From positions 1 through 20,268 of IMG/VR virus record IMGVR_UViG_3300028840_003447: DNA of 20,268 bases. One strand, written 5' to 3'. Below are positions 1-20,268 of the stretch, piece by piece (the first letter of the stretch is position 1; every line of letters starts with the position of its first letter). Under the pieces are notes generated by a model. That model was not told the DNA's origin, ran no database searches, and saw only the letters and a program-made list of their open reading frames with translations. The translations under genes were made by a program, and so were the position numbers. The DNA comes from a virus.

Positions 1-970
1 TGCTGTAGATCCCAAACCTGTATACCAAAACACATGGAATGGTATCCGACAAGCAGCATTAGATGCTGGTGCAAAATTCCCTGAAGTTGTTGCTGCACAA
101 TGGGCGCTTGAATCGGGATGGGGTAAGCACACTTCAGGTAAGCATAATTACTTTGGCCTCAAAGGTAAAGGCGGTACTGTTGTTGACACCCAAGAATATA
201 TCGATGGCCAATGGGTGACCATTAAAGATGGATTCATTAATTTTCCTGATATTTATTCCTGCGTTGAATACTTGGTCAATCGCTGGTATAAAGATTTTGA
301 TGGGTACCAAGGTGTTAACCGTGCAGCCAACCGGAATGAGTGTGCCAAACTTCTTGTAAAGGAAGGCTACGCAACAGATCCTGACTATGCAGATAAATTG
401 ATGCAGATCATGGATCGTGAATGCACCAGCAATCCCCCTGGTGGCAAGATCCTAAAGGTTCCATATTTCTATCAACTCGACAACCAAAGTGGATATGGCT
501 ATCGAGAATGTTTCTCATCTAGCTGTGCAATGATTGCTGCGTACTACGGCGTTGTTGATACAGATGATGAGTACAATAAAATTCGCGCAAAATTTGGTGA
601 CAGCACAGAAGCAACAGCTCAAATTAAAGCTCTGCAACACCTGGGACTAACAGCGTGGTTTGGTACCAAGGGCAATACAGAGCTACTTGAAAATCAAATC
701 AAGGAGTGCCATCCTGTTGCAGTTGGTTGGTTGCATTACGGATCTGCTAGCGCACCAAAAGGTGGTGGGCATTGGACATGCTGCATTGGATTTGATAAGG
801 ATCACATCATCATGAATGATCCTTACGGTGAAGCTGACCTTGTTAACGGTGGTTACGTTTCCACTGAAGCCAAGCGTGGCGTTGGTGTAAAATACAGCCG
901 CAAGAATTGGTTACGTCGTTGGGAAGTAGAAGGAAAGTCAACCGGGTGGTACCTAGCCGTCAAGCCATGA
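1..970 (+). CDS. Endolysin, glucosaminidase plus C39-like cysteine peptidase (5' end missing)
   Basis: The frame is open from base 2, so the gene begins outside the window; 322 codons are visible. The first ~70 residues carry a glucosaminidase (FlgJ/lysozyme-like) signature, ALESGWG with the likely catalytic Glu, followed by NYFGLKGK. After a linker comes a C39-like peptidase domain: a Gln in PYFYQL, catalytic Cys in ECFSSSCAM, His in GGGHW and Asp in MNDPYG. The first domain would cut the glycan strand of peptidoglycan and the second a peptide bond, so this is most likely the phage endolysin or a virion-associated wall hydrolase. The TGA overlaps the ATG of the next gene (ATGA), and a holin-like gene lies close by, which supports lysis. 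An internal GTG at 215 is not the real start, because the frame upstream of it encodes the first domain. Confidence 0.88.
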   Translation, partial: AVDPKPVYQNTWNGIRQAALDAGAKFPEVVAAQWALESGWGKHTSGKHNYFGLKGKGGTVVDTQEYIDGQWVTIKDGFINFPDIYSCVEYLVNRWYKDFDGYQGVNRAANRNECAKLLVKEGYATDPDYADKLMQIMDRECTSNPPGGKILKVPYFYQLDNQSGYGYRECFSSSCAMIAAYYGVVDTDDEYNKIRAKFGDSTEATAQIKALQHLGLTAWFGTKGNTELLENQIKECHPVAVGWLHYGSASAPKGGGHWTCCIGFDKDHIIMNDPYGEADLVNGGYVSTEAKRGVGVKYSRKNWLRRWEVEGKSTGWYLAVKP

Positions 971-1125
971 AAGTAAATAAAAATCCTGATATCAGGGTAA
1001 ATGTTTGCTACGAATTAAAAGACGAAAGGAAATGCCTCACCCTATCAAAGGATGAGGCTTATGCCTTACGTAAAGCAATTGAAGGACAGAATGGTTGCGT
1101 CTGGTGGTACCAGCCTGTCAACTGA
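967..1125 (+). CDS. Small hypothetical protein in lysis module (52 aa)
   Basis: The ATG overlaps the endolysin stop by four bases (ATGA), so translation is probably coupled. A longer reading from TTG at 907 would run deep into the endolysin and is unlikely. The product is a soluble, charged protein with the segment TLSKDEAYALRKAIEG and a C-terminal WWYQPVN. I see no membrane segment or known domain. Its stop abuts the stop of the convergent holin-like gene with no bases between. It may be a lysis accessory factor, but this rests only on position. Confidence 0.7.
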   Translation: MKVNKNPDIRVNVCYELKDERKCLTLSKDEAYALRKAIEGQNGCVWWYQPVN

Positions 1126-1290
1126 TTACTTTTGCTTAGCCTTACCAATAGCCAGAGCAAAGAACTCAATGACTTTGTAAATTTTGCCAAGAACTTGATT
1201 GTCGCGAGGTGTCGGCGTGGCGGCGACAACGATTGATGCAGCAGCGTGGAGCGCTAAAGCAAACTCGATAATTTCGTTAAGTTTGTCCAT
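1126..1290 (-). CDS. Holin-like small membrane protein (54 aa)
   Basis: This ORF starts at ATG 1290 and ends with TAA at 1126-1128. The protein starts MDKLNEIIEF, then has an Ala-rich hydrophobic segment (residues ~10-24, ALHAAASIVVAA), a TPTPRD turn, and a second hydrophobic stretch (IYKVIEFFALAIG) ending in a Lys-rich tail (KAKQK). Two short hydrophobic helices around a polar turn with a basic C-terminus suit a class II-type holin or a small phage membrane protein of the kind encoded beside endolysins. It converges directly on the 52-aa gene. A short hairpin with arms GGTAA/TTACC lies just upstream of the ATG. Function as a holin is inferred from topology and neighbours. Confidence 0.65.
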   Translation of the reverse strand: MDKLNEIIEFALALHAAASIVVAATPTPRDNQVLGKIYKVIEFFALAIGKAKQK

Positions 1291-1291
1291 G

Positions 1292-1321
1292 GGTAACCTG
1301 TAGGCTTACCTTTATTCTATA
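1292..1321 (-). promoter_or_regulatory. Putative promoter and leader hairpin of the holin-like gene
   Basis: On the minus strand TATAGAAT (1314-1321) resembles a -10 element just after the stop of the 223-aa gene. It is followed by AAAGG and a hairpin with arms GGTAA and TTACC that ends one base before the ATG. The nearest purine-rich SD-like stretch lies ~18 bases from the ATG, on the far side of the hairpin, so the structure could affect translation. No convincing -35 is visible. Confidence 0.3.
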
Positions 1322-1322
1322 A

Positions 1323-1994: not shown

Positions 1995-2035
1995 GTCTTG
2001 CCCACCTTGACCTGTTTTTATTAGCGTAACAGATT

Positions 2036-2935
2036 TTAGGGGCGATTGGTATAGGGAATGAAATCAGCAGGGAACGGTTCAGTATCAGCTTTATGGGTTG
2101 CATTCCAGGTGCTTGTCCATTCAGACAGTGAGTGATCGTGGATAGTTTCAAAATACAAGTCATTACCTGGTTCACAAATAATCTTATAAATATTGGCACT
2201 CAATGGAATACGGTCGCCAATAAGCCATGTTGAACCTTCAGGCACTGTTACTGTATCGGCTGGTTCAATTTCACATAATGTTTCCGTGAAAGCGTTAACT
2301 CCATCTGGAATAACAATGTCTGTATTGATTGGAGATGCAAGTTCCAGGGTGTCGCCAGTAATTTCTGTTTCAGACAGCATTACACTGCCATCACTGTCTT
2401 CTAACTCAATAAAAATTTCAGTGACAGGAAATTCAACAACAATACCAACACCATACTCAAGCCCTTCATTCCTGGTAGAAGAAACACAAATCAAGTACGT
2501 CCCTTTCTCCAGAGGGTAATACCTTTCATCTCCTTTATCAAGTCTTAATCTTTCGTATGTGTTATATAGATCAGACTGTGCACCCATAATCGTATCAAGA
2601 TACGGGTAATACGTCTGAACAGTACCATTAACATTTACAGAATCTGCATCAAAAATACTGCGTCCTTCAAGTGGAGTACGGTTCAGATCATACGCAGAAA
2701 CATTTACGTACTTGGGCCTGGAGCCACCCTTAATAACGATAATCCAACCAGACCTATCTAATGTGACACTATACCAATGGTTGTATTCACCGTTGCCATA
2801 GCCTCCGTTGATGACCTGATTTTTAGGACCCAAGCGTCCTGTTAGATAGCGAAGCGTCAGCTCACCAAAGGAACCCAAGCTGAATGGATTATTAGCGGAT
2901 CTTGTTTTCTGTCTTGATAAACTATTGCGTGCCAT
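2036..2935 (-). CDS. Probable virion/tail-associated protein (299 aa)
   Basis: The start is ATG 2935, overlapping the stop of the upstream HNH frame (TAATG). The N-terminus is basic and polar, and the rest looks like mostly beta-rich, low-charge virion protein sequence. Residues ~203-244 (IVIPDGVNAF, then VTVPEGSTWLIG) match residues ~153-197 of the structural protein at 14898-16298 in spacing and key residues: a hydrophobic-V/I-P-x3-NAF start, an acidic EI, TVT, then G-x-TW-x2-G. This shared module is the main reason for the structural call. No catalytic motif is visible. Exact role (tail fibre, decoration or adhesin) is unknown. Confidence 0.72.
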   Translation of the reverse strand: MARNSLSRQKTRSANNPFSLGSFGELTLRYLTGRLGPKNQVINGGYGNGEYNHWYSVTLDRSGWIIVIKGGSRPKYVNVSAYDLNRTPLEGRSIFDADSVNVNGTVQTYYPYLDTIMGAQSDLYNTYERLRLDKGDERYYPLEKGTYLICVSSTRNEGLEYGVGIVVEFPVTEIFIELEDSDGSVMLSETEITGDTLELASPINTDIVIPDGVNAFTETLCEIEPADTVTVPEGSTWLIGDRIPLSANIYKIICEPGNDLYFETIHDHSLSEWTSTWNATHKADTEPFPADFIPYTNRP

Positions 2936-3627
2936 TAAATACTGTCTACATATTCTTCATTGTAAGACTGGGAAATTTCAACATGCCTGGGATCGGAAAT
3001 AATGTTCTTTTTATAGGTCATGATCAAGGGATCTGTAGACTCACCCCTCTGTGTACGCTCTTGCATAGCTTTGATTTTTTCAAAATTAAACTCAGTATCG
3101 AAGTACATAAGATTCCTGAGTCGATTTGGGTTATTCCAACTTGAGACCAGATGAAGAGGATTGAGACATTTTTTGTTTCCACACGTACGGGTCACAGTCA
3201 TGGAACCCACATCACCCCAAGTCATGTTGTAGATGGCTTTATGGGTACTCATTCGGTCTGTACGCCTACCAGTGGACTGAGTCCTGTAAGAAGACGAGTA
3301 AACATACTCAGAAAGGGTGTGGGTGTCCCAGCAGTCCCCTGGATCCTCAGTCTCAATTTGAGTCCAGATTGAATTAGCGAGACGGTTGTAGTCCATATGC
3401 ATGTAGTTCACATCTATCCCACAGATATTGCTTCTGATGCGCCATACGCACCTGTAACACCAGTGCTTGGTCTTATCTCTGACGGTGTGTCCCAGGGGGC
3501 ATGGGTGACCGTAGTAGTACCCCTCCTTATCCATTACTTCTGGTTCCAGGGAGGTCAGAGGTCTGTAGCTCAGAGCTTCCTTGGCATAGCGCCTGCGACA
3601 TTTTCGGTCACTGAAAGGGTTCGCCAC
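2935..3627 (-). CDS. HNH homing-type endonuclease (intact 3' part, 230 aa)
   Basis: Residues 43-60 form a zinc-ribbon-like CPLGH...CYRC pair. The C-terminal half carries an HNH_3-type core: H129, then R-T-C149-G-N151-x2-C154-L-N156-P-L-H159-L, the His-Asn-His metal and zinc site of phage homing endonucleases. The chosen start is GTG 3627, the first start codon after an in-frame TGA. The same frame stays open and protein-like for 42 codons before that GTG, then meets the TGA at 3754-3756, then continues to ATG 3846. The gene may therefore be a truncated or decaying version of a ~302-aa enzyme. It is coupled (TAATG) to the virion-type gene downstream. Homing nucleases of this kind cut DNA at specific sites to spread their own gene. 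Confidence 0.75.
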   Translation of the reverse strand: MANPFSDRKCRRRYAKEALSYRPLTSLEPEVMDKEGYYYGHPCPLGHTVRDKTKHWCYRCVWRIRSNICGIDVNYMHMDYNRLANSIWTQIETEDPGDCWDTHTLSEYVYSSSYRTQSTGRRTDRMSTHKAIYNMTWGDVGSMTVTRTCGNKKCLNPLHLVSSWNNPNRLRNLMYFDTEFNFEKIKAMQERTQRGESTDPLIMTYKKNIISDPRHVEISQSYNEEYVDSI

Positions 3628-3846
3628 GTAACAAAAACCATGTATTTTGTCCCATTCTAGCGCATATTGCGATGGTTTGAGCTGTTTGGGTGTGTAGAAG
3701 TGGAGATCTGGGTATGAAATTTTTTTTATAAAAGCAGACGATAATTTGGGGCGTCAAAAATGGTTATTAGCTTTAGACACATGAGACTCAACGCCTTCTT
3801 GTTGTAACCACCGAAATTTGGATGTTTCAGTACCAGGGGCATTCAT
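3628..3846 (-). pseudogene. Upstream in-frame part of the HNH gene, interrupted by TGA
   Basis: On the minus strand ATG 3846 opens a frame of 30 residues (begins MNAPGTETSKFRWLQQ) and stops at TGA 3754-3756. The same frame then reads RPKLSSAFIKK, YPDLHFYTPKQ, ALEWDKIHGF and joins the HNH protein without shift. The ATG, the TGA and GTG 3627 are all in one frame. No ATG, GTG or TTG lies between the TGA and 3627. TGA is the normal stop of several genes here, so a nonsense mutation is more likely than recoding. Readthrough cannot be excluded. Confidence 0.5.
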
Positions 3847-3925: not shown

Positions 3926-4015
3926 CTCCACCTATTCCCTGGTACATCTGAACTAAAAGTGCATTAAAAAACCCCACCTTGCGGCAGGGTCTAGCAATAA
4001 GTCTCATTTGATACG
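3876..4015. other. Non-coding stretch beside the broken HNH gene
   Basis: Together with 3628-3875 this makes a 388-base gap between intact genes. It contains most of the right arm of the inverted duplication, C-rich tracts near 3899-3934, a CCTGGTAC motif at 3938, and the minus-strand terminator of the glycosyltransferase. I see no gene of its own in 3876-4015. Confidence 0.6.
3966..3990 (-). terminator. Rho-independent terminator of the glycosyltransferase operon
   Basis: Read on the minus strand, ACCCTGCC-GCAA-GGTGGGGT forms an eight-pair stem (two G-T pairs) closed by a GNRA-type GCAA loop and followed directly by six T. It lies about 25 bases after the stop of the minus-strand GT4 gene, so it probably ends that transcript. 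Confidence 0.8.
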
Positions 4016-5257
4016 TCAGATAGCTACAGGTTGCTTAACCTCTTCTTTAATAATCTCCTCTTCCTTCTCAGCCTTCTTCATGACCTCCTGGAACTCCTCA
4101 TCAAATTGATGAGCGATCGTATCCCAGCTGAACTCTTCGCTTGTCACACGGTCATAGCAGGCCTGTGCAGTGGCATCCAGTAGGTCACGGTCCTCGTACA
4201 GCTCAGTGAGAATCTCAGCAAAGTGATCACTGGAGGGACAATGCATTTCCCTTGCATAATTGGGATCTACATCCACATGCTCAGTGCGAATCAACTTGCC
4301 ATGCCCTTCAAAAATCTCCTTGGTACTGGTGTGATCTGGTACGACTTGAGCAACTCGGCATGCCGCTGCCTCAAAGTTGATAAGCTCCCACCCTCCACCT
4401 CGACAAGTATTAACAGAAACATCTGCTGCGTTATAGATCGTATTAAGCATCTCCACAGGTACATCCGGCGGATTCAGAGAGTTAGAAGTCATGATAATCC
4501 TGTTATTTGGATCTAGTTTTTGTTTGATCATTTCCCTGCCAAATAAATCCATGACACTCCAGCCCTGATCACGCAATCCCATATGCAAATAAAGGCGAGT
4601 ATCAGGCCTATTCACAGCAAATTTTGCAAAACCAGAAATTGTTAGATCAATGCGTTTTCGTGGTTGATTGCGATTAGCATTCAACACAACAAAAATATCT
4701 TCCGGCAGACCCAGTTTTTTACGTGCTTCTGCTTTGTCCATGGGATAGAACACATCAGTATCAAGACCATGGGGAATGATTGTGACAGGCCGATTAATAC
4801 CGGCCTTCAAAAATTCATGTGCACCAAACTCGGTAAAGGCAATCAGTGAATCCCACTCATTGATGTGTGGATCAATTCCGCCTAACCAATTGTATGAGTC
4901 CATGGTTAGGTACCCTACGAACTTAAACTTCTTCTGCTGGTGCAGATCTTTAATTTGATTGTACTGGGACGAGGTGATCCAAGGATCGTTCAAGCTGAAT
5001 ACAATATCTGGTTGTTCACGTTCAACAACTTCCCTGATACGTTGCTCACCAAATGGTGCTGTTTGATGTCGATTTGAGGCAGGATAAACTTTAAATTGTT
5101 TTTGCTCCTCGCACGGATCACCGAAGTAGTTTGAAGCAAGCACTACAATGTCATACTTATCTTTTAAACGAGGCAACACAGCTCCGCTTACCCTTCCAAA
5201 CCCTGTTTTTGCAACAAGATCAGCAACCCAAAGGAGCTTAGGTTTTTTTTCAGTCAT
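4016..5257 (-). CDS. GT4-type glycosyltransferase (413 aa)
   Basis: The fold is that of GT-B, family 4 retaining glycosyltransferases. The N-terminal half starts KPKLLWVADL with a Gly-rich loop (TGFGRVSG, residues ~18-25). IIPHGLDTDVFYP (~160-172) is the usual hinge. NQPRKR (197-202) is the donor-phosphate-binding Arg/Lys site. GGGWELINFEA (~287-297) corresponds to the EX7E motif, with E296 kept and Gly at the first Glu position. The last ~35 residues are a Lys/Glu-rich tail. It should transfer a sugar from a nucleotide donor, probably in the cytoplasm; acceptor and donor are unknown. Its ATG overlaps the upstream HNH gene by eight bases, so the two are probably co-translated. A terminator follows it. 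Length is normal for the family. Confidence 0.85.
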   Translation of the reverse strand: MTEKKPKLLWVADLVAKTGFGRVSGAVLPRLKDKYDIVVLASNYFGDPCEEQKQFKVYPASNRHQTAPFGEQRIREVVEREQPDIVFSLNDPWITSSQYNQIKDLHQQKKFKFVGYLTMDSYNWLGGIDPHINEWDSLIAFTEFGAHEFLKAGINRPVTIIPHGLDTDVFYPMDKAEARKKLGLPEDIFVVLNANRNQPRKRIDLTISGFAKFAVNRPDTRLYLHMGLRDQGWSVMDLFGREMIKQKLDPNNRIIMTSNSLNPPDVPVEMLNTIYNAADVSVNTCRGGGWELINFEAAACRVAQVVPDHTSTKEIFEGHGKLIRTEHVDVDPNYAREMHCPSSDHFAEILTELYEDRDLLDATAQACYDRVTSEEFSWDTIAHQFDEEFQEVMKKAEKEEEIIKEEVKQPVAI

Positions 5258-5936
5258 TTAAAAGATCTGTAAGTTCTTTACTGAATATATCGTAAACAGA
5301 GCCTTTTTGACAGTCGAGTTGACCAGGCCAGGTGTGATTTCCTTTTTTTAAATTTTCTTTTTCTGGTATCACTTGAAGATTAGTTTCAACGTGAAGCCCA
5401 CAAAGAAAAGCAGATCGTAATGGGTATATATGATCAACATGGTGCTTTACTCCTGTTTTTTTAGTTTTGATGGCAGCTTCTTTGTAGATGTTTCTTATTG
5501 TTTTTTTATTTGCCCAAGACACTAATGCCTTTATTTTTTTAGCTTTTTTTCTATTAGCGTATGCAATTTGAGCGTCTTTATTTTTTTCATACCATTTTTT
5601 GGTTTTTTGTTTTTTCCTTTCTCTCCATTCAGAATCTTTAGCCCAACGTTCTCTATACTTTTTATTGCGTCGGTTTTTTTCTTTTTCTTTCCATTTTAAA
5701 TCGGTTTTATATCGCTCTCTTTTTCTTTTGTTTATTTTTTCTTTATTCTTTTTTTCATATTCTTTTACAGCATTTATGATTTTTTGTTTTGTTTCTGGAT
5801 TGTCATGATATCTTTTTCGCGCAGCAGCTCTTGCGCAATCTGGGCATCCCCTTTTAGATTCATTAGGAGCATACCAATGCAGTTTTTTCCTGCAAAGTTT
5901 GTAGCCCTCTCCAGGGCAATCGTTTAGAATGTCCAT
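5250..5936 (-). CDS. HNH endonuclease with zinc ribbon and long basic linker (228 aa)
   Basis: The N-terminus has cysteines C7, C15, C31 and C34 (GCPDC), probably a zinc site. Residues ~50-135 are a very Lys/Arg/Glu-rich helical region with loosely repeated units around RYKTDLKWKEK, RERWAKDSEW and KKWYEKNKD. The C-terminal core HHVDHIYPLRS (165-175), then LHVETNLQVI and KENLKKGN, is the H-x2-DH...N...N pattern of an HNH nuclease common in phage genomes. The gene is visibly more AT-rich than its neighbours, with long A-runs on the coding strand, which suggests recent transfer. Its stop overlaps the glycosyltransferase start (ATGACTGA). Two hairpins occupy its leader. Likely a mobile homing endonuclease inserted between speD and the glycosyltransferase gene. 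Confidence 0.82.
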   Translation of the reverse strand: MDILNDCPGEGYKLCRKKLHWYAPNESKRGCPDCARAAARKRYHDNPETKQKIINAVKEYEKKNKEKINKRKRERYKTDLKWKEKEKNRRNKKYRERWAKDSEWRERKKQKTKKWYEKNKDAQIAYANRKKAKKIKALVSWANKKTIRNIYKEAAIKTKKTGVKHHVDHIYPLRSAFLCGLHVETNLQVIPEKENLKKGNHTWPGQLDCQKGSVYDIFSKELTDLLND

Positions 5937-6002: not shown

Positions 6003-6359
6003 TTATTTTTCTTCCCTTACGGTACTTCTATCCAATTCTTTCACCTGATAGCTAGTACTCTTTAGTTTTACCAGCAGATAGTTAATGATATTCTGCACCA
6101 AACATTTATTACTGCATGTGTATATGTCAATAGCCGCATAGCCTTTTTCAGGCCATGTATGAATGGATGCATGAGACTCTGACAACAGGAACAACAGTGT
6201 TGCCCCCTGGGGCTCGAACTCATGCCCTACGTGATTTAAGATCTTGGCACCAGTCAACTCGATTGCTTCATACATCATCTTATACAAGAAGTTGTAATCA
6301 TCAAGAAGTTCTGTATTGCATTGATACAGGTCAAGAATAAGGTGCTTACCTACCGTCAC
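6003..6359 (-). CDS. speD: S-adenosylmethionine decarboxylase proenzyme
   Basis: The prokaryotic (class 1B) enzyme pattern is complete in 118 residues. LLSESHASIHTWPE (59-71) holds the self-cleavage site: E61-S62 is cut and S62 becomes the pyruvoyl cofactor. H67 and C82 (in AIDIYTC) match the processing and catalytic residues, each one lower than in the Thermotoga enzyme (S63, H68, C83). The product decarboxylates S-adenosylmethionine to supply aminopropyl groups for spermidine. speD is a known auxiliary gene of cyanophages. The start is GTG 6359, overlapping the primase stop (GTGA), with AGGAGG upstream. No spermidine synthase gene is visible here, so the phage would rely on the host enzyme. 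Confidence 0.95.
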   Translation of the reverse strand: MTVGKHLILDLYQCNTELLDDYNFLYKMMYEAIELTGAKILNHVGHEFEPQGATLLFLLSESHASIHTWPEKGYAAIDIYTCSNKCLVQNIINYLLVKLKSTSYQVKELDRSTVREEK

Positions 6360-8998
6360 TCCTCTGCCTCCTTGCTGTACTTCTCATTGGGTGAAATATA
6401 GTCAATCACACCCTTTCCATAAAACTGCTCATACTCTTCCTTATGAAGACCTACTTCAACGATTGAGGGATAGGTTTCATACTTAGCATTACTGCTGCGT
6501 ATTGCAATGTTTACAAGAAATGTTGCCCGAGAATTACGGTACTTGTAGATATTCACACCTAACTGGTGATTACAGATGTCAAGTAACAACGTCTCAAACC
6601 TGGAACGCCCTAATACATTGCCATTTGAATTCTTAGTGAATTCACAGTAAGAAGCATACAACCATTTGTCAGTGTTTGCATACATTGTCGATGCTTCCCT
6701 TGGTGCATGTTTTGCAAGACCAACAGATGTCCGAGCATTTACATCAAACACAATGCAGTGATGCAACCAGTCCATCACAGGGTTAGATTTAAGAGTTTGC
6801 TCAGTGTTGTATTGAGCATAGAAAGGAACACTCTTTGCTGTTTCCATAAGATACTCACGCATTTCTTCATGAGGCATTTCAAGCACCCAGTTGACCAAAC
6901 CGGGAAGCATCGGAGCAAATTCCCCGAATGCATTTCCTTTATCATCCATATCAATTAACACCTTCTGCTCCCTGGAGCTGCCTTTGAATGGATTGTTGAA
7001 TGGAATCGTCAGACGACGCCTGGCAAGACCAGAGGTTGGATCCGTTGTTTGGATTGGTTCATTAGCAGTAATCATAACCAAGCCATCAAACTTGAATGGC
7101 TTCTGCTTATCAGTCTGATACTTCTGTTCATTACGGATCAGGTCACGACCAGTCAATGCTTTCAGTACTGAAACCGATCCGCCATAACGCTCAACATCAT
7201 TGAACAACAACAGCTTCTTCTTATAGATGTTTGCTGTTTCAAACCTGTTTTTTTCAAGGTGCTCAAGGCTAGAGATCATGGCATTTTGATCACCCACCAA
7301 TGCATGAGCAAGGTTGGCATAACTAGACTTACCTGATTTCCCTGGTCCGACAATCTCAACAAACTTCTGGATATCAGAACAGCTAAGTAGTACGGCACGA
7401 AGCCATGCCCTTAGCACCTGTACACGCTTCCAGTTGTTATCCTGTGTATTCTTTAACCATTGAATAATTGGCTCACACTTAGCAGATGGGTCGTAATCAT
7501 AGGGTAAGCGCTGGGTTATATACAGTTCTTTATCGAATGGCATTAACCTACGTTCACCAATATTTAACACACCGTTATTAAACAAAAGTAAGTTCTTATC
7601 TTCCGACCAGTCATCAAACGGCACTGCCAACTTTAACTGCAGGTAAATATCATTGATCAGATTCATGGAATAACCACGAGGTAGCAATGCACCTTTAATC
7701 TCATCCAACTTATTCTTGATGTCAGACTTAACTTCGATCTCCATCAAACCAGCCCAAAGCCCTGGCCCCTTGGCACCATACATAAAGAATTGATCATGCA
7801 TTTTCGAATACAACAGATTCCCCTGGTACTGACCCAATAACATTGCAGCAATTGTGTCACTGGAAGGGTTACGACTTGGTTTCTTGTCGTCCTCTTGATT
7901 TGCCTCTACTGCATTAGTAAACCAATCATTACGCTTTTCTTTTTTCTTTTTCTTTGGCTTTTCCAATACTGATTTGTTGTCCGGCATGCCAACCCCTTCC
8001 TCCAGTTCACGGATCAAACGTTCAACGGTATCGTCATCCACATTAGTAACCATATGTTCTTTTGATGCTTCGGGATCTTGCCAGCCATTTTCTTTTGCCA
8101 TAGCAATCAACGATGCCATGGTCCTGCCACCACCTTTTGAGAATGACTGCCACCGCCTTTGGCATTCACCTTGCATGTACTTATCGGATTGTTTGGACCA
8201 CTCATCCCATTCCTCAAGCAGACTCTCGTCTAATGAATGTAGTGATTGTCCAATAATGATCCAGGTGTCATAGTCATCCGCTGCATCAGGAGGCAAGGCC
8301 CATAATGCTTCTTTTGCCCTTTTCATCTCCCGTTCAATTGACATGTAGGAGTTGATGGCAAAATTAGAGCCAACAATCCTGGATGTTTGCTGGAACGGAC
8401 TACCTTGCCTTACGTTTTTGTTAATGATGTCATTCATTAACCACTGCGGCAGCTCAGGCAATTTATCTACCCAGCTAAAGTCACAGCCTTCTTTGGTGTA
8501 ATATCCCTCAGTTTCAGGATGCAAACCCATCAGCACACCCTGGTGCCGCTTCCATAACACCTCTAATTTTTCATTATCACCTTCTGCATGCCATACATAT
8601 TTGTTGCGTGCAAAATGCTTCCAGTTATCTTTGGATAACTTGTAGAGCATCCGTTCACGACCAGGCTTACCACTACAAATGGTCAGTGTCTTGGGTAATG
8701 CCTCCTCAACTGTTTGCTGCGATACCTCTTCAATAGTTTTGTATACGGATGCACCATCGATATCAACCCATACGTGACCATAGGGTTCATTGAAGACAGG
8801 GCCACCCATCAGGCCGATGGCTTTACACCTGTCCTCAGTAATCTCAATCTCAATTTCCTGGGGCGAAAGTGGTTTGTTTTGCCATCCAGGAATATACGGA
8901 GCCTTGTTCCCGTTTAACGCAGTTAACGGCCAATCGATATTGAGAAGATCAAGACGAATTTCACCAGGACGAAGGGAGAGTGAATTTTGGCTCATCAT
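6356..8998 (-). CDS. Bifunctional primase-polymerase / SF3 helicase (D5-like, 880 aa)
   Basis: Three domains are visible. Residues ~18-190 are a prim-pol domain with VWVDIDG (D79, D81), the metal-binding Asp pair. Residues ~215-305 resemble PriCT-2, with WIIIGQSLHSLD and RWQSFSKGGG. After a Lys-rich linker (~345-360) comes a D5-type superfamily 3 helicase: Walker A GPGKSGKSS near residue 548, Walker B LLLFNDVE near 592, sensor MITANEP near 641, and arginine finger ARRRLTIPF near 657. It should make primers and unwind DNA at the fork. The start is one of two adjacent ATGs (MMSQ). It follows a small gene by six bases and overlaps speD, so it lies in the same operon. No DNA polymerase gene is in the window. 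Confidence 0.92.
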   Translation of the reverse strand: MMSQNSLSLRPGEIRLDLLNIDWPLTALNGNKAPYIPGWQNKPLSPQEIEIEITEDRCKAIGLMGGPVFNEPYGHVWVDIDGASVYKTIEEVSQQTVEEALPKTLTICSGKPGRERMLYKLSKDNWKHFARNKYVWHAEGDNEKLEVLWKRHQGVLMGLHPETEGYYTKEGCDFSWVDKLPELPQWLMNDIINKNVRQGSPFQQTSRIVGSNFAINSYMSIEREMKRAKEALWALPPDAADDYDTWIIIGQSLHSLDESLLEEWDEWSKQSDKYMQGECQRRWQSFSKGGGRTMASLIAMAKENGWQDPEASKEHMVTNVDDDTVERLIRELEEGVGMPDNKSVLEKPKKKKKEKRNDWFTNAVEANQEDDKKPSRNPSSDTIAAMLLGQYQGNLLYSKMHDQFFMYGAKGPGLWAGLMEIEVKSDIKNKLDEIKGALLPRGYSMNLINDIYLQLKLAVPFDDWSEDKNLLLFNNGVLNIGERRLMPFDKELYITQRLPYDYDPSAKCEPIIQWLKNTQDNNWKRVQVLRAWLRAVLLSCSDIQKFVEIVGPGKSGKSSYANLAHALVGDQNAMISSLEHLEKNRFETANIYKKKLLLFNDVERYGGSVSVLKALTGRDLIRNEQKYQTDKQKPFKFDGLVMITANEPIQTTDPTSGLARRRLTIPFNNPFKGSSREQKVLIDMDDKGNAFGEFAPMLPGLVNWVLEMPHEEMREYLMETAKSVPFYAQYNTEQTLKSNPVMDWLHHCIVFDVNARTSVGLAKHAPREASTMYANTDKWLYASYCEFTKNSNGNVLGRSRFETLLLDICNHQLGVNIYKYRNSRATFLVNIAIRSSNAKYETYPSIVEVGLHKEEYEQFYGKGVIDYISPNEKYSKEAEE

Positions 8999-9248: not shown

Positions 9249-9512
9249 TTAGTTTTTGTTTTCCTTTACCCATTTCGCAGTGAGTCTCATTGGACCACCT
9301 AGTTTTGCAGCCTCAGTCCCAGGCTCCTGGTGCGGCTCCTCACTATAGATGGGTTTAAAGTTGTCTTCCAATTCTTTTTCAAATTCAATTTTATGTTGCC
9401 ATTCAATCATTGTTAGACGTGCTTTCAGCTTGGATTCAAACCAAACACGTTTGATCCACTTGACAACAGCATTAATACAGTCAGATATAAAAGCACGGAT
9501 CCAGGGCATCAT
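9249..9512 (-). CDS. Hypothetical protein with amphipathic N-terminus (87 aa)
   Basis: Residues 1-25 (from MMPWIRAFISDCINAVVKWI) form a helix with a hydrophobic face and basic residues, which could sit on a membrane surface, though it is too polar for a clear transmembrane segment. The rest is Glu/Lys-rich and probably helical. No domain recognised. It follows the next upstream gene by eight bases and shares its operon. Confidence 0.65.
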   Translation of the reverse strand: MMPWIRAFISDCINAVVKWIKRVWFESKLKARLTMIEWQHKIEFEKELEDNFKPIYSEEPHQEPGTEAAKLGGPMRLTAKWVKENKN

Positions 9513-9729: not shown

Positions 9730-9740
9730 ACTATTATACC
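9730..9740 (-). promoter_or_regulatory. Possible extended -10 promoter for the replication genes
   Basis: On the minus strand TGGTATAATAG overlaps the stop codon of the exonuclease gene and gives a TATAAT hexamer with the extended TG. It could start an RNA covering the three small genes, primase-helicase and speD. No clear -35 is seen. Confidence 0.3.
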
Positions 9741-11459: not shown

Positions 11460-12316
11460 GTATTTACGGTGGTAGTGGTCTGATTGGCAGCTACTTTCAA
11501 GGTCTTTATGGTGGTTGGGTGATCAATAGAAACACCTTGCCACCCAAAACAGACAGAGTTCTTTACTTAATTAGCACTACTGATAATCACAATATATACT
11601 TAGATCCAACCATAGATATCAAAACAAATCTCCTGGAACTAACCAAGAGATTAGAAGCGTGTCGTAAAGCTAGTGTTAATGAATTTAATTTTATAAGCAG
11701 TTGGTTTGTTTATGGCAAACACCATGATGAATGCACTGAAGAGGCCTGGTGCCAACCCCAAGGTTTTTATCCAATCACAAAGCTTGCTGCCGAGAATTTA
11801 GTTATTGATTATTGCAATACTTTTGATATCAAATGGCGCATTTTAAGGCTAGGTAATGTTTATGGCGGACCAGATACAGGCAACAAAAAACGTAATGCAT
11901 TACACAAATTTATTAACGATATAAAAGAACACAAAAATATTAATGTATTTCGTGGTGTTGCTCGTGATTACATTCATATGTTTGATGTTTGTCGTGGCAT
12001 TAAATACATTGTTAATACAGGAAAATTTAATACAATCTACAACATTGGTACAGGCAAAAAAGAATCATTGCACAAGCTATTGACAAAAGCCAAGTGGCAT
12101 CTAAAATCACCGTCCAAAATCGACACCATCGACCCACCTTGCACTTACACCCAGGCAATCAGTACGTATTTAAATGTAGATCGTCTTAGTAGCCTTGGCT
12201 TTAAACCTGTGGTTAATATAGAAGAAGGCATCGAAGACTTATGTCACGCTCAAAAGTTTTGTACTCCGGACCGTATTTTGATGGTACCGAAATTCAAGCA
12301 GCTATTAACACCCTGA
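11450..12316 (+). CDS. NAD-dependent nucleotide-sugar epimerase/dehydratase (288 aa)
   Basis: An extended short-chain dehydrogenase. IYGGSGLIG (5-13) is the Rossmann NAD-binding loop, SSWFVYG (83-89) contains the catalytic Ser region, and Y107-PIT-K111 is the YxxxK pair. RLGNVYGG and ARDYIHMFDV are further family marks. The Rossmann end is compact, with a shortened beta-strand before the loop. The start is GTG 11450, inside the end of the GT2 gene. The C-terminal ~25 residues run through the beginning of the next gene (76 bases of overlap). It probably makes a 4-keto or epimerised nucleotide sugar for the neighbouring enzymes. Confidence 0.83.
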   Translation: MDLSIYGGSGLIGSYFQGLYGGWVINRNTLPPKTDRVLYLISTTDNHNIYLDPTIDIKTNLLELTKRLEACRKASVNEFNFISSWFVYGKHHDECTEEAWCQPQGFYPITKLAAENLVIDYCNTFDIKWRILRLGNVYGGPDTGNKKRNALHKFINDIKEHKNINVFRGVARDYIHMFDVCRGIKYIVNTGKFNTIYNIGTGKKESLHKLLTKAKWHLKSPSKIDTIDPPCTYTQAISTYLNVDRLSSLGFKPVVNIEEGIEDLCHAQKFCTPDRILMVPKFKQLLTP

Positions 12317-13500
12317 CAGAAGGGGAGTGGTATCCAGCAGGTAAAGAAGTAGCCAAGTTTGAGCGTCAGTTTTCTGATAAGTTTAAGTTTAAAAAATCGT
12401 TAATGGTTAATAGTGGTAGCAGCGCTAACCTTGTAATGATCGCTGCTCTTAAGAAATATTTCGGCTGGAAGGACGGCGATGAAATCATTGTGAGTGTGGT
12501 AGGGTTTCCCACAACCGTAAACCCCATTATTCAAAATGGTTTGGTCCCTCGTTTTGTTGACATCAATTGGATTGATCTTAACTGGGACTTGGATCAAGTT
12601 GCCCAAAGTATCAATGCCCGTACCGTTGCGGTATTCAGTAGCCCTGTTCTTGGCAATCCTTGCAATTTTGATAAGCTTTTAAATATTTGTTTAGAATATG
12701 ACCTGGAACTTATTTCAGATAATTGTGATTCACTTGGATCTCAATGGAAAAATAAATTTCTTACTGAATATTCAGTAGCTTCTTCCACATCTTTTTATCC
12801 TGCACATCACATCACCACCCTAGAGGGCGGGATGGTGTCATCAAACATTGAAGAAGTTGTTGACATTGCTAGGCAGTTTGCCTGGTGGGGACGCGATTGT
12901 TATTGCGTAGGATCTTGTAACACATTGATGAATGGTACGTGTGGTAAACGTTTTGATAAATGGCTTGATGGCTATGATGGTGTTGTAGATCACAAATACG
13001 TTTTTAGTCAGATTGGTTACAACTTGAAACCACTGGACCTTCAAGGTGCTATTGGTCAAGTACAACTGAAAAAATTTGATGATATACATGAATTACGTCG
13101 TGCAAATTATGGTTATATCCAGCGTTGCTTTGATGATTATCCTATTGATGTGCGCGTTATCGAAGAAGCTGACTCTGCTATGACTAGTTGGTTTGGTGTA
13201 CCAATCATATGTAACAACAGTAAAATTAAACATAGTCTTCAGCAACACCTGGAACAATCGGGCATTCAAACCCGAAACTATTTCGCCGGTAATTTATTGT
13301 TACATCCTGCTTATAAACACCTAGGCAATGCCAAAAATTATCCACGCGCAATGGAAGTTCTTAACAAAGTATTCTTCCTTGGTACGGCACCTACATTGTC
13401 TTCTGAAGACCTAGAGTTTGTACGGGAAAAACTAATTGAGTTTCGTGATAACCAACCTATCAAGTGTGATGGTTATTCGTGCATGTTTGATGTAAAGTAA
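12241..13500 (+). CDS. RfbH-like PLP and [2Fe-2S] sugar 3-dehydratase (DegT family)
   Basis: A DegT/DnrJ/EryC1-fold enzyme of 419 residues. The usual PLP-binding Lys (SFxPxKH in aminotransferases) is replaced by H189 in FYPAHHITT, the mark of the E1/RfbH group, which removes a 3-hydroxyl instead of adding an amino group. Iron-sulfur cysteines are present: C162 (DNCDSLGS), then C220-Y-C222 exactly 57 residues later, then C234 (TCGKRF). From memory the family motif is C-x57-C-x-C-x7-C; here the last gap is 11 and contains an extra C226. SGPYFDGTEIQAA and YNLKPLDLQGAIG are general family motifs. Likely substrate is a CDP-4-keto-6-deoxyhexose or similar. A reductase partner (E3) is not seen in the window, so the host may supply it. 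Confidence 0.85.
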   Translation: MSRSKVLYSGPYFDGTEIQAAINTLTEGEWYPAGKEVAKFERQFSDKFKFKKSLMVNSGSSANLVMIAALKKYFGWKDGDEIIVSVVGFPTTVNPIIQNGLVPRFVDINWIDLNWDLDQVAQSINARTVAVFSSPVLGNPCNFDKLLNICLEYDLELISDNCDSLGSQWKNKFLTEYSVASSTSFYPAHHITTLEGGMVSSNIEEVVDIARQFAWWGRDCYCVGSCNTLMNGTCGKRFDKWLDGYDGVVDHKYVFSQIGYNLKPLDLQGAIGQVQLKKFDDIHELRRANYGYIQRCFDDYPIDVRVIEEADSAMTSWFGVPIICNNSKIKHSLQQHLEQSGIQTRNYFAGNLLLHPAYKHLGNAKNYPRAMEVLNKVFFLGTAPTLSSEDLEFVREKLIEFRDNQPIKCDGYSCMFDVK

Positions 13501-13520: not shown

Positions 13521-13766
13521 ATGGCTCTTAGCAGTTCTGTCAAGGAATCAATCAATGCCGCTGCAGCACATTTACGTGAGGCTGTAGCGTTTGGTTCCCG
13601 TGTTGAGCACCCCGTTACCCTCAGTGCATTAGTTGACTGCGTCTCTCGGCTTGAAACGATTGAAGCCCTGGAGCAAACCGTAGAAAAATTTGCGGCTAAT
13701 CAATTCAAACCCACAGGTAGCTTGTTGGATCACATCAAATTTGACGGCAATTCTCCAATGTCATGA
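13521..13766 (+). CDS. Hypothetical protein (81 aa)
   Basis: An Ala-rich, mostly helical protein with SVKESINAAAAHLREAV at the start and two further helices (LSALVDCVSRLETIEALEQ, then VEKFAANQF). It follows the dehydratase by 20 bases and is the last gene before a terminator, so it may be part of the same transcript. I recognise no domain. No Shine-Dalgarno sequence is visible before ATG 13521. Confidence 0.7.
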   Translation: MALSSSVKESINAAAAHLREAVAFGSRVEHPVTLSALVDCVSRLETIEALEQTVEKFAANQFKPTGSLLDHIKFDGNSPMS

Positions 13767-13856: not shown

Positions 13857-13880
13857 TCCCGGTTAACTACCGGGATTTTT
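13857..13880 (+). terminator. Rho-independent terminator of the sugar gene cluster
   Basis: TCCCGG-TTAACTA-CCGGGA forms a six-pair stem with a seven-base loop, followed by TTTTT. It lies on the plus strand, downstream of the dehydratase and the 81-aa gene. Confidence 0.85.
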
Positions 13881-13883
13881 GTA

Positions 13884-13889
13884 TATAAT
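13884..13889 (+). promoter_or_regulatory. Possible -10 element for the HNH gene
   Basis: TATAAT occurs just after the terminator and 22 bases before GTG 13912. TTAACT 15 bases upstream could be a weak -35, but it lies in the terminator loop. Confidence 0.3.
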
Positions 13890-13911
13890 CAAACAAGATA
13901 GTTCTTCTTGC

Positions 13912-14160
13912 GTGAACAAGAACATTAAACGTCGCAAGCAATTACGAGAACAGTTCCTTCAATACAAACAAAACCTTAGCTGTCAGCAGTGTGGCTGGAA
14001 TGATCACAGAGCCTTGGAGTTTCATCACCACAACGATGACAAAAAAGAAAGCATATCTAGGTTAGTTGCCCATGGCTACGGCTGGAATACCATAGAGAAA
14101 GAGATTAAGAAATGCCAAGTTTTATGTGCCAACTGCCATAGGATTGTTCATTGTACTTGA
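13912..14160 (+). CDS. HNH endonuclease, small (82 aa)
   Basis: The protein is a compact HNH nuclease: CQQC (24-27), FHHHND (37-42), and CANCHRIVH (72-80). The two CxxC pairs hold structural zinc and the His/Asn residues form the active site. The start chosen is GTG 13912, as an earlier TTG at 13879 lies in the terminator tail. It stands alone between a terminator and a convergent minus-strand terminator, typical of a free-standing homing or accessory endonuclease. Confidence 0.85.
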   Translation: MNKNIKRRKQLREQFLQYKQNLSCQQCGWNDHRALEFHHHNDDKKESISRLVAHGYGWNTIEKEIKKCQVLCANCHRIVHCT

Positions 14161-14321: not shown

Positions 14322-14870
14322 CTAGGATCCCCGCATTAAAGATTTTACAAACCAAGCAGATTTAAATGCGTGTTCACACAACTCACTGAGATAGTTCTGA
14401 ACGTCAATAGCTTTGATCTTGGCAGCAGCAGCCTCAGTCTTTTTAGTTGCCATACCAAGATCTTCCAGATTACTTAAATATGTAAGCAACATATCTTTTG
14501 CCTGGTACTTTTTCACATGTTTAAACGAAGGACATGCTTCACGCATGCCTTCTGAACACATAGGAAGAAAGTAATCCATGGAGCGGATTAGTTCACCGAT
14601 ACGATCAAAATGTTCTTCATGGGCAAGATATTGTTTCTTAAGGAATTTATGCACCCCAAGAAAATTACCAGCTTCGTAATTGAAATGAATTAAATGTGCT
14701 TGCATCCGCAGCTCATTCATGTACGAAGCAAGACCAGTTAACTCACGAATGAACTGATCAAGATTTGTTTTAGGTTTTTGTTTTGATGATGCCTTGGGTT
14801 TACTTGCAGCTTCTTCAGGTTGCCTTGAGGCAACATCAGCGGGTTGCATGCCTGGTGCAGGAGTGTACAT
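14322..14870 (-). CDS. Dps-like ferritin-superfamily protein (182 aa)
   Basis: A four-helix protein after a ~37-residue Ala/Lys/Pro-rich, probably disordered N-terminus. The Dps ferroxidase pattern is recognisable by spacing: H62 (IHFNYEAGNF), H74 (GVHKF), D89 and E93 (FDRIGELI) match E. coli H51, H63, D78 and E82 at the same intervals (+12, +15, +4). The fifth ligand, D67 in E. coli, is Lys78 here. The C-terminal helix (HAFKSAWFVKSLM) matches the conserved end of Dps (x-K-x-AW-x-LR). Dps proteins form 12-mer shells that oxidise and store iron and may bind DNA. The Lys suggests altered iron chemistry, and the basic N-tail may bind DNA. It follows a structural gene, so a virion part is another option. 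Confidence 0.68.
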   Translation of the reverse strand: MYTPAPGMQPADVASRQPEEAASKPKASSKQKPKTNLDQFIRELTGLASYMNELRMQAHLIHFNYEAGNFLGVHKFLKKQYLAHEEHFDRIGELIRSMDYFLPMCSEGMREACPSFKHVKKYQAKDMLLTYLSNLEDLGMATKKTEAAAAKIKAIDVQNYLSELCEHAFKSAWFVKSLMRGS

Positions 14871-16298: not shown

Positions 16299-16320
16299 GT
16301 TTATTTCAGTTTATTTTTCT

Positions 16321-16328: not shown

Positions 16329-16360
16329 CCCCTACACACTTAGCAAATTTTTTTATTTTA

Positions 16361-16423: not shown

Positions 16424-16431
16424 CAATTTTA

Positions 16432-16824: not shown

Positions 16825-16845
16825 TGATAAGCCTGGTACTAACAA

Positions 16846-16863: not shown

Positions 16864-16874
16864 AAGTAGAAGGA

Positions 16875-17293: not shown

Positions 17294-17330
17294 TAATGGA
17301 TGTGAATGGGTTTCTAATAGGATACCAGAT

Positions 17331-17594: not shown

Positions 17595-17627
17595 GATACT
17601 CCTGGCGTTAACACCATCCTACATGCC

Positions 17628-17966
17628 TTAGTTTTTCTCCCTGGCTAAATAGTACCAATAGCAACTGCTTGCATTGGCATGAAACCGTTTGCCACCAAGC
17701 AACTTCAGCTTGCGTTCTTCAAGCTCTTCAACTTTTTTTTCCTGGTACGGCAACACACCTTCTTCATCCGTGCACATCTTTAGTTCAAGATCTACCATTT
17801 GAAGCTGCAGATCAAAGTCAGACACTGCCTGGTTATGGCATTGCATACGGACACGAGCGTCATCAAGACCCTGTGGCACTTGCAAGTTCTGATAGAAGCT
17901 CTGTTGAATGGCTGGGTGAAAGTGCGTCCACTGGTTTGTTGAGTAGTCGCTTGCGCCTGATTGCAT
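17628..17966 (-). CDS. Hypothetical protein with coiled segment (112 aa)
   Basis: From ATG 17966 the protein reads MQSGASDYSTNQW, then HPAIQQSFYQNLQVPQG, then a helical part (DFDLQLQMVDLELKMC) and a Glu/Lys coil (EKKVEELEERKLKLL), ending CYWYYLAREKN. This start overlaps the Gp157-like gene by 104 bases in another frame. A later ATG at 17846 would avoid the overlap (72 aa). The first 40 residues look protein-like, so I prefer the longer form, with reservation. Confidence 0.6.
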   Translation of the reverse strand: MQSGASDYSTNQWTHFHPAIQQSFYQNLQVPQGLDDARVRMQCHNQAVSDFDLQLQMVDLELKMCTDEEGVLPYQEKKVEELEERKLKLLGGKRFHANASSCYWYYLAREKN

Positions 17967-18582
17967 AGTTTTGTTGGACTTTGACACCTGTGGGAAGTTG
18001 CTCTCCCTTTTCATAAGCTGCACGGATTGCATCGACATTGGGTATGGTTTCAGTTTTTGTTGTAGGTTTAGTGCTTTCATCAAGCACTTCGCCCGTCAAG
18101 GATGTTACTACAGTGTGTTTGGTGGTAGTAACTGTTTGTACAATACAATATTTCTCACGTTCCTGCTGGGTCCAGTCCTCAATATCTGAATTAATTTCTA
18201 CGCTAAGATCTTTCAGCCTACTAAACGTAAACTGATAGTTTTCTCCCTGGAGCGTACTACCGTCCATTGGTACGTAGTTACGCAGATATTTCAGCAAGCT
18301 TTTGATTTGGTTAACTTGAGCTTCGTGATGCTTACGTTGCGTCTTTAGTAACTCTTCTTCTTTCTTGGCACGTTCAATGGCATCTTCATTGTTAACCCAT
18401 GCGTAATAAATTTGATCAAGCTTTTTGGCTTTGAAGGCAGCACAAAGCTCCATCTCAGCTTTGACCAACTCCTGGGATTCAGGAGTAAGTAAAGGAAGAC
18501 TGCTTTCCAAGGCAGCATGATGCTTAATTAATTCAAAGGTTGTCAACCGTTTAAGGTCAGTGCTTGTTTGTTGTTGAGTCAT
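17863..18582 (-). CDS. Gp157-like phage protein (239 aa)
   Basis: Architecture and motifs resemble siphovirus Gp157: an N-terminal helical half with a coiled coil (AIERAKKEEELLKTQRKHHEAQVNQIKSLL broken into heptads), a central beta-like segment (YQFTFSRL), and a C-terminal DAIRAAYEKGEQLPTGVKV, equivalent to the family's IK-x-L-K-x-GExVPGV end. Its function is not firmly known; it is found in phage early regions near recombination genes. I start it at ATG 18582 (MTQQQTST). ATG 18615 would overlap the HicA-like gene more deeply. About 30 residues after the usual family end overlap the next gene. Confidence 0.75.
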   Translation of the reverse strand: MTQQQTSTDLKRLTTFELIKHHAALESSLPLLTPESQELVKAEMELCAAFKAKKLDQIYYAWVNNEDAIERAKKEEELLKTQRKHHEAQVNQIKSLLKYLRNYVPMDGSTLQGENYQFTFSRLKDLSVEINSDIEDWTQQEREKYCIVQTVTTTKHTVVTSLTGEVLDESTKPTTKTETIPNVDAIRAAYEKGEQLPTGVKVQQNYAIRRKRLLNKPVDALSPSHSTELLSELASATGS

Positions 18583-18763: not shown

Positions 18764-18885
18764 TGGAACCAGCTCACCACTTGACCTAGACCATAGGCAC
18801 AGATTGCGCCAAGGCCAGCCCATACAATTTCTTTAGCCAGTTCAAGTGCAACAGGAACAACAGAAGCGATGATAAAGTCAAACAT
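18760..18885 (-). CDS. Small membrane protein (41 aa)
   Basis: ATG 18885 opens a 41-codon frame ending TGA at 18760-18762, overlapping the next start (GTGA). The protein begins MFDFIIASVVPVALELAKEI and continues WAGLGAICAYGLGQVVSWF: two hydrophobic stretches around a Glu-Lys turn, so one or two membrane helices. No SD is visible. The four-base overlap with the HicA-like gene supports translation. Confidence 0.6.
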   Translation of the reverse strand: MFDFIIASVVPVALELAKEIVWAGLGAICAYGLGQVVSWFQ

Positions 18886-18946
18886 TGGATGAAGTGAGTT
18901 AATGAAATGATATGCAGTTTAGAGACATGCTTAGGTCTAGTTGAGA

Positions 18947-19159
18947 TCAGTCAGGTTCTACTGATTCTTCATAAGGACCACACTGCGTCTCCTGGCCCAT
19001 GTATTGATCCACGGTGAGCTTGATCAATGCAGTAATACAATCGTACTCAAACTCCTTGGGTGCTGTGTCAGCAATCATAGCAACCAGCATACGACGGTTG
19101 CCGTTTGGAATGCTGCCAACTTCAATGGCATCAAAGTGTGTTTTGAGAAGATCAGTCAT
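18947..19159 (-). CDS. Hypothetical protein (70 aa)
   Basis: ATG 19159 overlaps the stop of the SWIM-like gene (ATGA). Soluble, acidic C-terminus (GPYEESVEPD), with a helix DCITALIKLTVDQYM. No domain recognised. Confidence 0.68.
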   Translation of the reverse strand: MTDLLKTHFDAIEVGSIPNGNRRMLVAMIADTAPKEFEYDCITALIKLTVDQYMGQETQCGPYEESVEPD

Positions 19160-20121
19160 TTGTTTTTCTTAAAGATGTGGCTGACTTGAGGCAATGCAAA
19201 CGCAGGGAAAGGAACAAACTCATTATCAAGCATGGAATCAAATAGATCCCAGGCATCATCCTGAGTGAAGCTCTCCTTTGGTTTGTATACCTTCCAGCAA
19301 TTTAGCGGTGCCATCGACCCTTGTGTTGTATAAATGATCATGAATTTACCATCTTGTTGTCCTTCCTCAGGTGGTGCATAGGCCCATGCCGTAGCTTTCT
19401 GCGCAGTCTGACCACGTTGCGTAGACCGCAGCTCTGAGCGTTTGACAAGCAGCTGACGGTACCGCTGGAACCACGACAAGTGAATGCAGGTTGGCTTGAA
19501 GCCTTCTATCTCAGCTTGGAAATCAGCCAAGTTGTTAAGTTGATATTGATATGAACCGCAACTGCACCATGGTTCATGAATGTCATTATCCTCAGCTACG
19601 CTATCAGAATTTTCTTCATCATCACCAAGATGATTAAGAGCTGCACCAGGCATACTAAACCGCATACCATCAGGAGCCACCAAATGGCCAAGGTCTGTCC
19701 GATCTCCCTGGAGCAACGCAAGTAATTTTTCTTGATCTTGTATAGCAGCAAACTTATCGATCCACCTTGCTTGCATAAGGGCTGGCGGAGTCCTGTGACT
19801 GAGTTGAGAGGCATAGTTCCAACCTTTAAGAATTACGTATGCACCATGATGCCAGATACTAGGACCCCTGTAGTTAGGACCTAGATATGCAAAGAAATTT
19901 TTTAGTCGACTTGAGAAGGCACCGTAGGAATCTTTAATTGGTTGTTCGGGCAGAAGTTGTTCAGTACCATCAGTGCGAACAACAAGGAGATTAGAGCCTG
20001 ACTTATAAAGACCAGCAATGTCACTCTCATCAAAATCCTGGAACGCCCTTCTAATATTAGTACGTGAGTAGATAAGTTTTTGTGCAGTGTTGAGTTCAGT
20101 TGCAGTTGTGTGTTCAGTCAT
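19156..20121 (-). CDS. Protein with SWIM-like zinc finger (321 aa)
   Basis: The main recognisable feature is C186-S-C188 in WCSCGSYQYQ and C212-I-H214 in KPTCIHLSWF, 24 residues apart: the CxC...CxH pattern of SWIM zinc fingers, which bind DNA or protein. N-terminal (~1-150) and C-terminal parts (TAWAYAPPEEGQQ, FMIIYTTQG) have no motif I know. It is the first gene of the minus-strand operon near the right edge and likely a DNA-associated early protein. Start ATG 20121 (MTEHTTATEL) follows a short AT-rich leader. Confidence 0.7.
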   Translation of the reverse strand: MTEHTTATELNTAQKLIYSRTNIRRAFQDFDESDIAGLYKSGSNLLVVRTDGTEQLLPEQPIKDSYGAFSSRLKNFFAYLGPNYRGPSIWHHGAYVILKGWNYASQLSHRTPPALMQARWIDKFAAIQDQEKLLALLQGDRTDLGHLVAPDGMRFSMPGAALNHLGDDEENSDSVAEDNDIHEPWCSCGSYQYQLNNLADFQAEIEGFKPTCIHLSWFQRYRQLLVKRSELRSTQRGQTAQKATAWAYAPPEEGQQDGKFMIIYTTQGSMAPLNCWKVYKPKESFTQDDAWDLFDSMLDNEFVPFPAFALPQVSHIFKKNK

Positions 20122-20154
20122 TGTATTGTGATGGAATAGATTTGAATTGATTCA

Positions 20155-20268
20155 ATGTTGAAATTTGAAATGAGTCCAGAGGAATTGTTCTGGCAAGAAA
20201 AGATGTTACGTCATATTAAAGATTGTAATTCAGTGGATGAGTTGAAGAAAATTGCTGAGCTGCTTACC
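20155..20268 (+). CDS. Start of a hypothetical gene running out of the window
   Basis: The plus-strand frame from ATG 20155 stays open to the right end (38 codons): MLKFEMSPEELFWQEKMLRH, then a helix ending ELKKIAELLT. ATG 20170 is a second possible start. It is divergent from the SWIM-like gene, so the 33 bases between the two starts are a likely double promoter. The function cannot be read from this part. Confidence 0.55.
   Translation, partial: MLKFEMSPEELFWQEKMLRHIKDCNSVDELKKIAELLT

Follow-up and report, generated by a model that had tools for sequence, protein, structure and literature searches.

The CCTGGWRC sites of the window and the genes around them

The DNA analyzed here, the window, is a 20,268-bp virus record from IMG/VR (IMGVR_UViG_3300028840_003447). 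Its PrimPol-helicase is 62% identical to the counterpart of Synechococcus phage S-EIVl (KJ410740), and S-EIVl and many IMG/VR contigs have their genes in the same order; judged by its proteins and gene order, the window phage is a relative of S-EIVl. The window also encodes an exonuclease, an endolysin, a Dps-like protein, an S-adenosylmethionine decarboxylase, sugar genes and three HNH/endonuclease-VII-like proteins. Copies of the octamer CCTGGWRC (W, A or T; R, A or G) are dispersed over the plus strand. CCTGGWRC is the window lineage's form of a genome-polar motif with the core CCCTGGW, which is common to S-EIVl-like cyanophages and probably marks landing sites for an enzyme that handles phage DNA in one direction. 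The sites of the window are:

2717..2724, plus strand, CCTGGWRC site, CCTGGAGC
3938..3945, plus strand, CCTGGWRC site outside the open reading frames (ORFs) used, CCTGGTAC
4087..4094, plus strand, CCTGGWRC site, CCTGGAAC
6599..6606, plus strand, CCTGGWRC site, CCTGGAAC
6971..6978, plus strand, CCTGGWRC site, CCTGGAGC
7822..7829, plus strand, CCTGGWRC site, CCTGGTAC
8539..8546, plus strand, CCTGGWRC site, CCTGGTGC
9326..9333, plus strand, CCTGGWRC site, CCTGGTGC
11057..11064, plus strand, CCTGGWRC site in a plus-strand gene, CCTGGAGC
11361..11368, plus strand, CCTGGWRC site in a plus-strand gene, CCTGGTGC
11632..11639, plus strand, CCTGGWRC site in a plus-strand gene, CCTGGAAC
11745..11752, plus strand, CCTGGWRC site in a plus-strand gene, CCTGGTGC
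12702..12709, plus strand, CCTGGWRC site in a plus-strand gene, CCTGGAAC
13248..13255, plus strand, CCTGGWRC site in a plus-strand gene, CCTGGAAC
13667..13674, plus strand, CCTGGWRC site in a plus-strand gene, CCTGGAGC
14501..14508, plus strand, CCTGGWRC site, CCTGGTAC
14851..14858, plus strand, CCTGGWRC site, CCTGGTGC
16832..16839, plus strand, CCTGGWRC site, CCTGGTAC
17741..17748, plus strand, CCTGGWRC site, CCTGGTAC
18246..18253, plus strand, CCTGGWRC site, CCTGGAGC
19707..19714, plus strand, CCTGGWRC site, CCTGGAGC
20037..20044, plus strand, CCTGGWRC site, CCTGGAAC
2341..2348, minus strand, opposite-strand copy, probably background (in the family, such copies are without the A-rich block described below), CCTGGAAC
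3543..3550, minus strand, opposite-strand copy, probably background, CCTGGAAC
3830..3837, minus strand, opposite-strand copy, probably background, CCTGGTAC
19643..19650, minus strand, opposite-strand copy, probably background, CCTGGTGC

Exact counting gives 44 CCTGG and 21 CCAGG on the plus strand, and 22 CCTGGWRC on the plus versus 4 on the minus strand. Markov models of orders 1, 2, 3 and 4 predict 0.8, 1.3, 2.4 and 5.8 plus-strand copies, with P values for 22 copies of 2e-24, 7e-20, 3e-14 and 2e-7, respectively. When all 8-mers that contain two 2-fold degenerate positions are scanned without bias toward any motif, CCTGGWRC is the most over-represented word, and it keeps this rank when only one count per 500-bp bin is allowed. 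The four WR combinations are used almost equally on the plus strand (6, 6, 5 and 5 times). The polarity is seen inside plus-strand ORFs (7/0, plus/minus) as well as inside minus-strand ORFs (14/3), and all three codon frames hold the motif, with frame 2 favored (13 of 21). In 1000 synonymous-codon shuffles, which preserve the proteins and the codon usage, the motif occurred 2.65 times on average and at most 8 times, versus the 22 observed. In the relative G001, whose aligned DNA is 87% identical, 10 of 11 aligned sites are retained, which lends modest support because changes within sites are few.

An earlier sequence-only reading had counted about 44 CCTGG, 21 CCAGG and 22 CCTGGWRC by eye, and these numbers match. 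It was also right that the reverse complement is rare, with about 3 copies given in place of 4, and the positions it listed lie within 1–2 bp of actual sites, except for 11041, where the site starts at 11057. The bias that it described in genes of both directions and in all frames is borne out, frame 2 being favored, and its proposal of a strand-polar signal at the DNA level is strongly supported and extends to the whole phage family. The third-order Markov count that it proposed as a check gave the 2.4 expected copies stated above.

The genes that could be connected with the motif, together with the gene used for collecting the family, are:

6356..8998, minus strand, PrimPol with PriCT_2 and D5-type helicase, candidate reader if the motif serves in priming
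9734..10582, minus strand, PD-(D/E)XK exonuclease, core gene and bait for collecting the family
2935..3627, minus strand, HNH/His-Me endonuclease-like protein that the family conserves, putative reader or nickase
5250..5936, minus strand, endonuclease VII-like protein, weaker candidate nuclease
13879..14160, plus strand, small HNH endonuclease, weaker candidate nuclease

Neither the PrimPol nor the HNH protein had a usable match when its sequence was searched against solved structures. The S-adenosylmethionine decarboxylase gene (6003-6359), a polyamine synthesis gene, adjoins the PrimPol gene; many relatives retain it, and the S-EIVl annotation includes it. The candidate endolysin (215-970) consists of a glucosaminidase-domain remnant fused to a C39-like peptidase domain; its ORF has a GTG start and may be truncated at the N-terminus. 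Three plus-strand genes coding for a glycosyltransferase, an NAD-epimerase and a DegT aminotransferase (10722-13500) lie amid minus-strand genes; this block is also found in the relatives G002 and G010 and was not found by tblastn in S-EIVl or in the 81-kb relative G007.

A genome-polar motif with an A-rich second element

For strand counts, all relatives were oriented like the window. CCTGGWRC is found 20/9, 20/2 and 12/1 times (plus/minus) in G001, G002 and G010, respectively, and related words are polar in S-EIVl (YCSCTGGT, 33/6) and G007 (YCCCTGGW, 28/5), with no strand flip of the polarity along either genome. A scan based on the exonuclease yielded 77 family loci, and at least 600 terminase stretches in IMG/VR match this lineage. 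Each of the 34 whole contigs of 40–95 kb, which are partly non-independent, has more YCCCTGGW on the window-plus strand; the totals are 457 versus 146 copies, with extremes of 16/0, 25/1, 12/0 and 8/0 in single contigs. Both the search for a strand flip and the comparison with relatives had been proposed in the sequence-only reading. In a dereplicated set of 59 members (1.1 Mb), equal polarity was demanded inside plus-strand and inside minus-strand genes; ranked by polarity, CCTGG came first among the 5-mers (988/616 and 609/404, respectively) and CCCTGG among the 6-mers (356/154 and 212/101), and the top three 7-mers were CCCTGGT, followed by CCCCTGG and TCCCTGG. Terminase-region loci, in which nearly all genes are on the plus strand, gave 112/34 and exonuclease-region loci, in which most are on the minus strand, 108/23; therefore, the signal tracks genome orientation and not gene sense. 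Other top-ranking octamers of some relatives (ACWGGWAC, GGWRCAGG, CTGGYGYA and GAMACKCT) turned out to be clustered repeats and not dispersed motifs. One of these is a short tandem repeat in the relative G008 (L016:1464-1618), in which 8 copies of GAMACKCT stand at an exact spacing of 21 bp.

Counted from the first C of CCTGG, family sites of the correct polarity are enriched in A at positions +14 to +18, with a peak at +16/+17 (38–47% A versus 28%). This A-rich block accompanies plus-strand sites (p 1e-27 for CCTGGW and 5e-14 for CCTGGWRC) and is absent from opposite-strand CCTGGWRC copies of the family (p 0.75) and from the Chi sites of phage P1. The A-rich block sets functional copies apart from chance copies, and the spacing suggests a bipartite site with two parts about one helical turn apart. 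The motif is enriched and of constant polarity, independent of gene direction and codons, conserved in the family and accompanied by an A-rich block on copies of one polarity.

The window-plus strand is C-rich independently of the genes, with a third-position GC skew of about -0.07 in every member tested of the dereplicated family; this skew of the plus strand is -0.11 in plus-strand genes and -0.035 in minus-strand genes. Such a bias would suit replication in one direction or some other process that runs one way. It falls far short of a 2- to 5-fold polarity, since the ratio expected from a skew of -0.07 is near 1.15.

Possible functions of the motif

The polar motif is established, and for its function several readings were weighed. 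A phage-encoded enzyme would read dispersed CCCTGGW-core sites on one strand and process the DNA one way along the genome. Our first choice, held tentatively, is that a phage enzyme recognizes the dispersed sites on one strand and nicks this strand; phage tf is the sole known system found with the same sequence signature. Localized single-strand interruptions are enigmatic and have been known from T5 since the 1960s; the class is defined by a ligatable nick (3'-OH, 5'-P) in virion DNA, and sciA and sciB are the nicking genes of T5. Experiments on Pseudomonas phage tf mapped 14 nicks at TACT/RTGMC; all are on a single strand, in genes of either orientation, and in relatives of tf this strand carries a variant of the consensus (PMC3517423). 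Our own count of TACTRTGMC in tf gave 14/0 versus 0.5 expected. The one-strand bias regardless of gene direction that marks such sites is also found here (22/4 in the window, 7/0 and 14/3 by gene direction, 34/34 contigs). An HNH-type endonuclease is conserved across the S-EIVl-like family; this enzyme would recognize the octamer and, roughly one helical turn downstream, the A-rich block, and it would nick a single strand of DNA that is being replicated or is already packaged, resulting in localized interruptions like those of phages T5, phiKMV and tf. We infer the reading enzyme, its nicking activity and the gene responsible.

Several observations weigh against nick sites. The HNH gene is also found in low-GC lineages that do not have CCTGGWRC, so that the link between the HNH protein and the motif is one we infer, and neither presence nor absence of the PrimPol or the HNH gene separates lineages with the motif from those without it. 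Minus-strand copies are near background but not absent, whereas tf has none; the motif is graded and not exact; and the nicks of tf lie on the strand that does not code for the terminase, whereas the motif of S-EIVl lies on the terminase coding strand.

Lagging-strand priming is a less likely alternative: the PrimPol-helicase would need the octamer for primer start, and one-way replication would pile up the sites on one strand. PrimPol is indeed present in nearly all family loci of sufficient length and thus travels with the motif, the PrimPol of phage NrS-1 requires an octamer, TTTGGTTA, whose center is likewise TGGT (PMC7102993, PMC8718748), the two loci with the most diverged PrimPol (L253, 37%; L302, 41%) are barely polar (4/2 and 1/1), and the gene-independent third-position skew without a flip suits one-directional replication. 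By the usual rule, however, a C-rich plus strand (skew -0.073) would make the minus strand the lagging-strand template; the motif would then be on the wrong strand and the likeness to NrS-1 would lapse. In addition, NrS-1 has two copies of its octamer, one per strand, and the primase sites of T7 show no polarity (187/215). It is quite improbable that the motif is read in a different one-direction process, such as packaging, ejection or recombination by an enzyme of the phage; the genome-long constant polarity and the second element would fit, but no gene could be linked to it and we know of no phage system in which packaging, ejection or recombination reads such a word. The idea that codon usage, protein motifs or strand composition produce the motif as a side effect can appeal to the weak C-rich skew of the plus strand and to the favored frame 2; it is very improbable and contradicted by the findings that the synonymous shuffles reached 8 copies at most, that the polarity has the same direction in plus-strand and minus-strand genes, that the skew yields a ratio near 1.15 and not 2–5, and that the A-rich block is confined to plus-strand sites.

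That the motif is the Chi of the host, shielding phage ends from host RecBCD as in P1 and T5, also has a low probability. The CTGG core is shared with the Chi sites of E. coli (GCTGGTGG) and Pseudomonas (GCTGGCGC) (PMC5959072), recombinase-less phages enrich Chi (PMC3784561), RecC is encoded in 14 of 14 picocyanobacterial candidate host genomes, and the identical scan picks GCTGGTGG as the top octamer of P1. Against this, the enrichment in host genomes that the sequence-only reading had proposed to look for was not found in pooled samples of eight picocyanobacterial genomes (observed/expected 0.88/0.82 for YCCCTGGW and 1.18/1.04 for CCTGGWRC), although the true host may differ; Chi is only weakly polar in P1 (31/19) and has no A-rich block there; and unrelated Synechococcus phages lack the polarity of YCCCTGGW (S-CBS2 5/4, S-CBS3 2/4, S-CBS4 4/1). 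The probability of host Chi is lowered only, because the true host may lie outside the sampled genomes. A role as Chi was rejected for Cyanobium, Vulcanococcus, Synechococcus UW105, 8F6, J7-Johnson and RCC307 and for the metagenome-assembled genome (MAG) UW140, none of which shows enrichment under order-5 models; under order-3 models, enrichment is at most 1.5-fold, and the high raw count in the UW140 MAG is an effect of its 68% GC. An apparent all-plus list of sites in the genome G038 was a sorting artefact (57/40 in sampled windows), and two Chi copies in the first 50 kb of T5 are too few for judgement. The reversed-pattern control misleads in such genome searches, as GGWCC is avoided in G037. 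This 3.05-Mb genome, which came from the search for relatives, strongly avoids GGWCC-containing words and carries GGGATCCC, a HIP1-like iterated palindrome of different sequence, 446 times on both strands versus 73 expected in 180 kb.

Comparison with known systems

The statement of the sequence-only reading that no such motif has been described in such phages is not contradicted, in that no report of the motif turned up in the open-access literature searched. It represents a genome-scale one-strand DNA signal conserved in a widespread cyanophage lineage. Should the sites prove to be nick sites, a T5-type feature would extend to cyanophages, and many genomes would be at hand for identifying the nickase and for learning what the nicks are for. 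Priming sites would instead provide a phage replication map, and Chi sites would be the first known from picocyanobacteria. It is tempting to speculate, with more doubt than belief, that S-EIVl-like phages carry a polar address code of octamer and A-rich block, read genome-wide on one strand by an enzyme of their own. Such a code would parallel Chi or KOPS in a phage, without a described equivalent, and its word would drift between lineages along with its reader. S-EIVl was described together with its Synechococcus host, so that a laboratory test of motif function is feasible.

The sequence-only reading had likened the motif to Chi, KOPS or packaging motifs and had also mentioned the Dcm site. 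Of these, packaging may apply in the wide sense of a one-direction process, whereas neither host Chi, in the hosts sampled, nor a KOPS-like role finds support. KOPS are words of host chromosomes that converge on dif, with a polarity that flips at the origin and at dif; the motif is likewise a short, over-represented, strand-polar word, but it is phage-specific, without a flip over S-EIVl or G007 and without enrichment or skew in the sampled hosts. The asymmetries of 44/21 and 22/4 and the WRC extension do not fit a Dcm methylation site, which cannot explain the polarity because CCWGG is palindromic. Chi attenuates RecBCD that reaches it from the 3' side. Like the Chi of P1 and T5, the motif is a non-palindromic octamer with a CTGG core that is over-represented in a phage; unlike Chi, it is not enriched in the sampled hosts, its polarity is far above that of Chi in P1, and its A-rich block has no parallel at P1 Chi. 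With the NrS-1 system, the window phage shares an 8-nt word with a TGGT core and the same enzyme architecture; however, NrS-1 has one octamer copy per strand, versus tens on one strand here (PMC7102993). The closest analogue, which the sequence-only reading did not name, is the strand-specific nick consensus of tf, T5 and phiKMV: a short, degenerate one-strand consensus, dispersed over genes of both directions, above chance and with variants in relatives. The sequence differs, the phages are unrelated and the sites described here are candidate nick sites; unlike in tf, opposite-strand copies exist, an extra A-rich block lies about 10 nt downstream, and the family has many more members.

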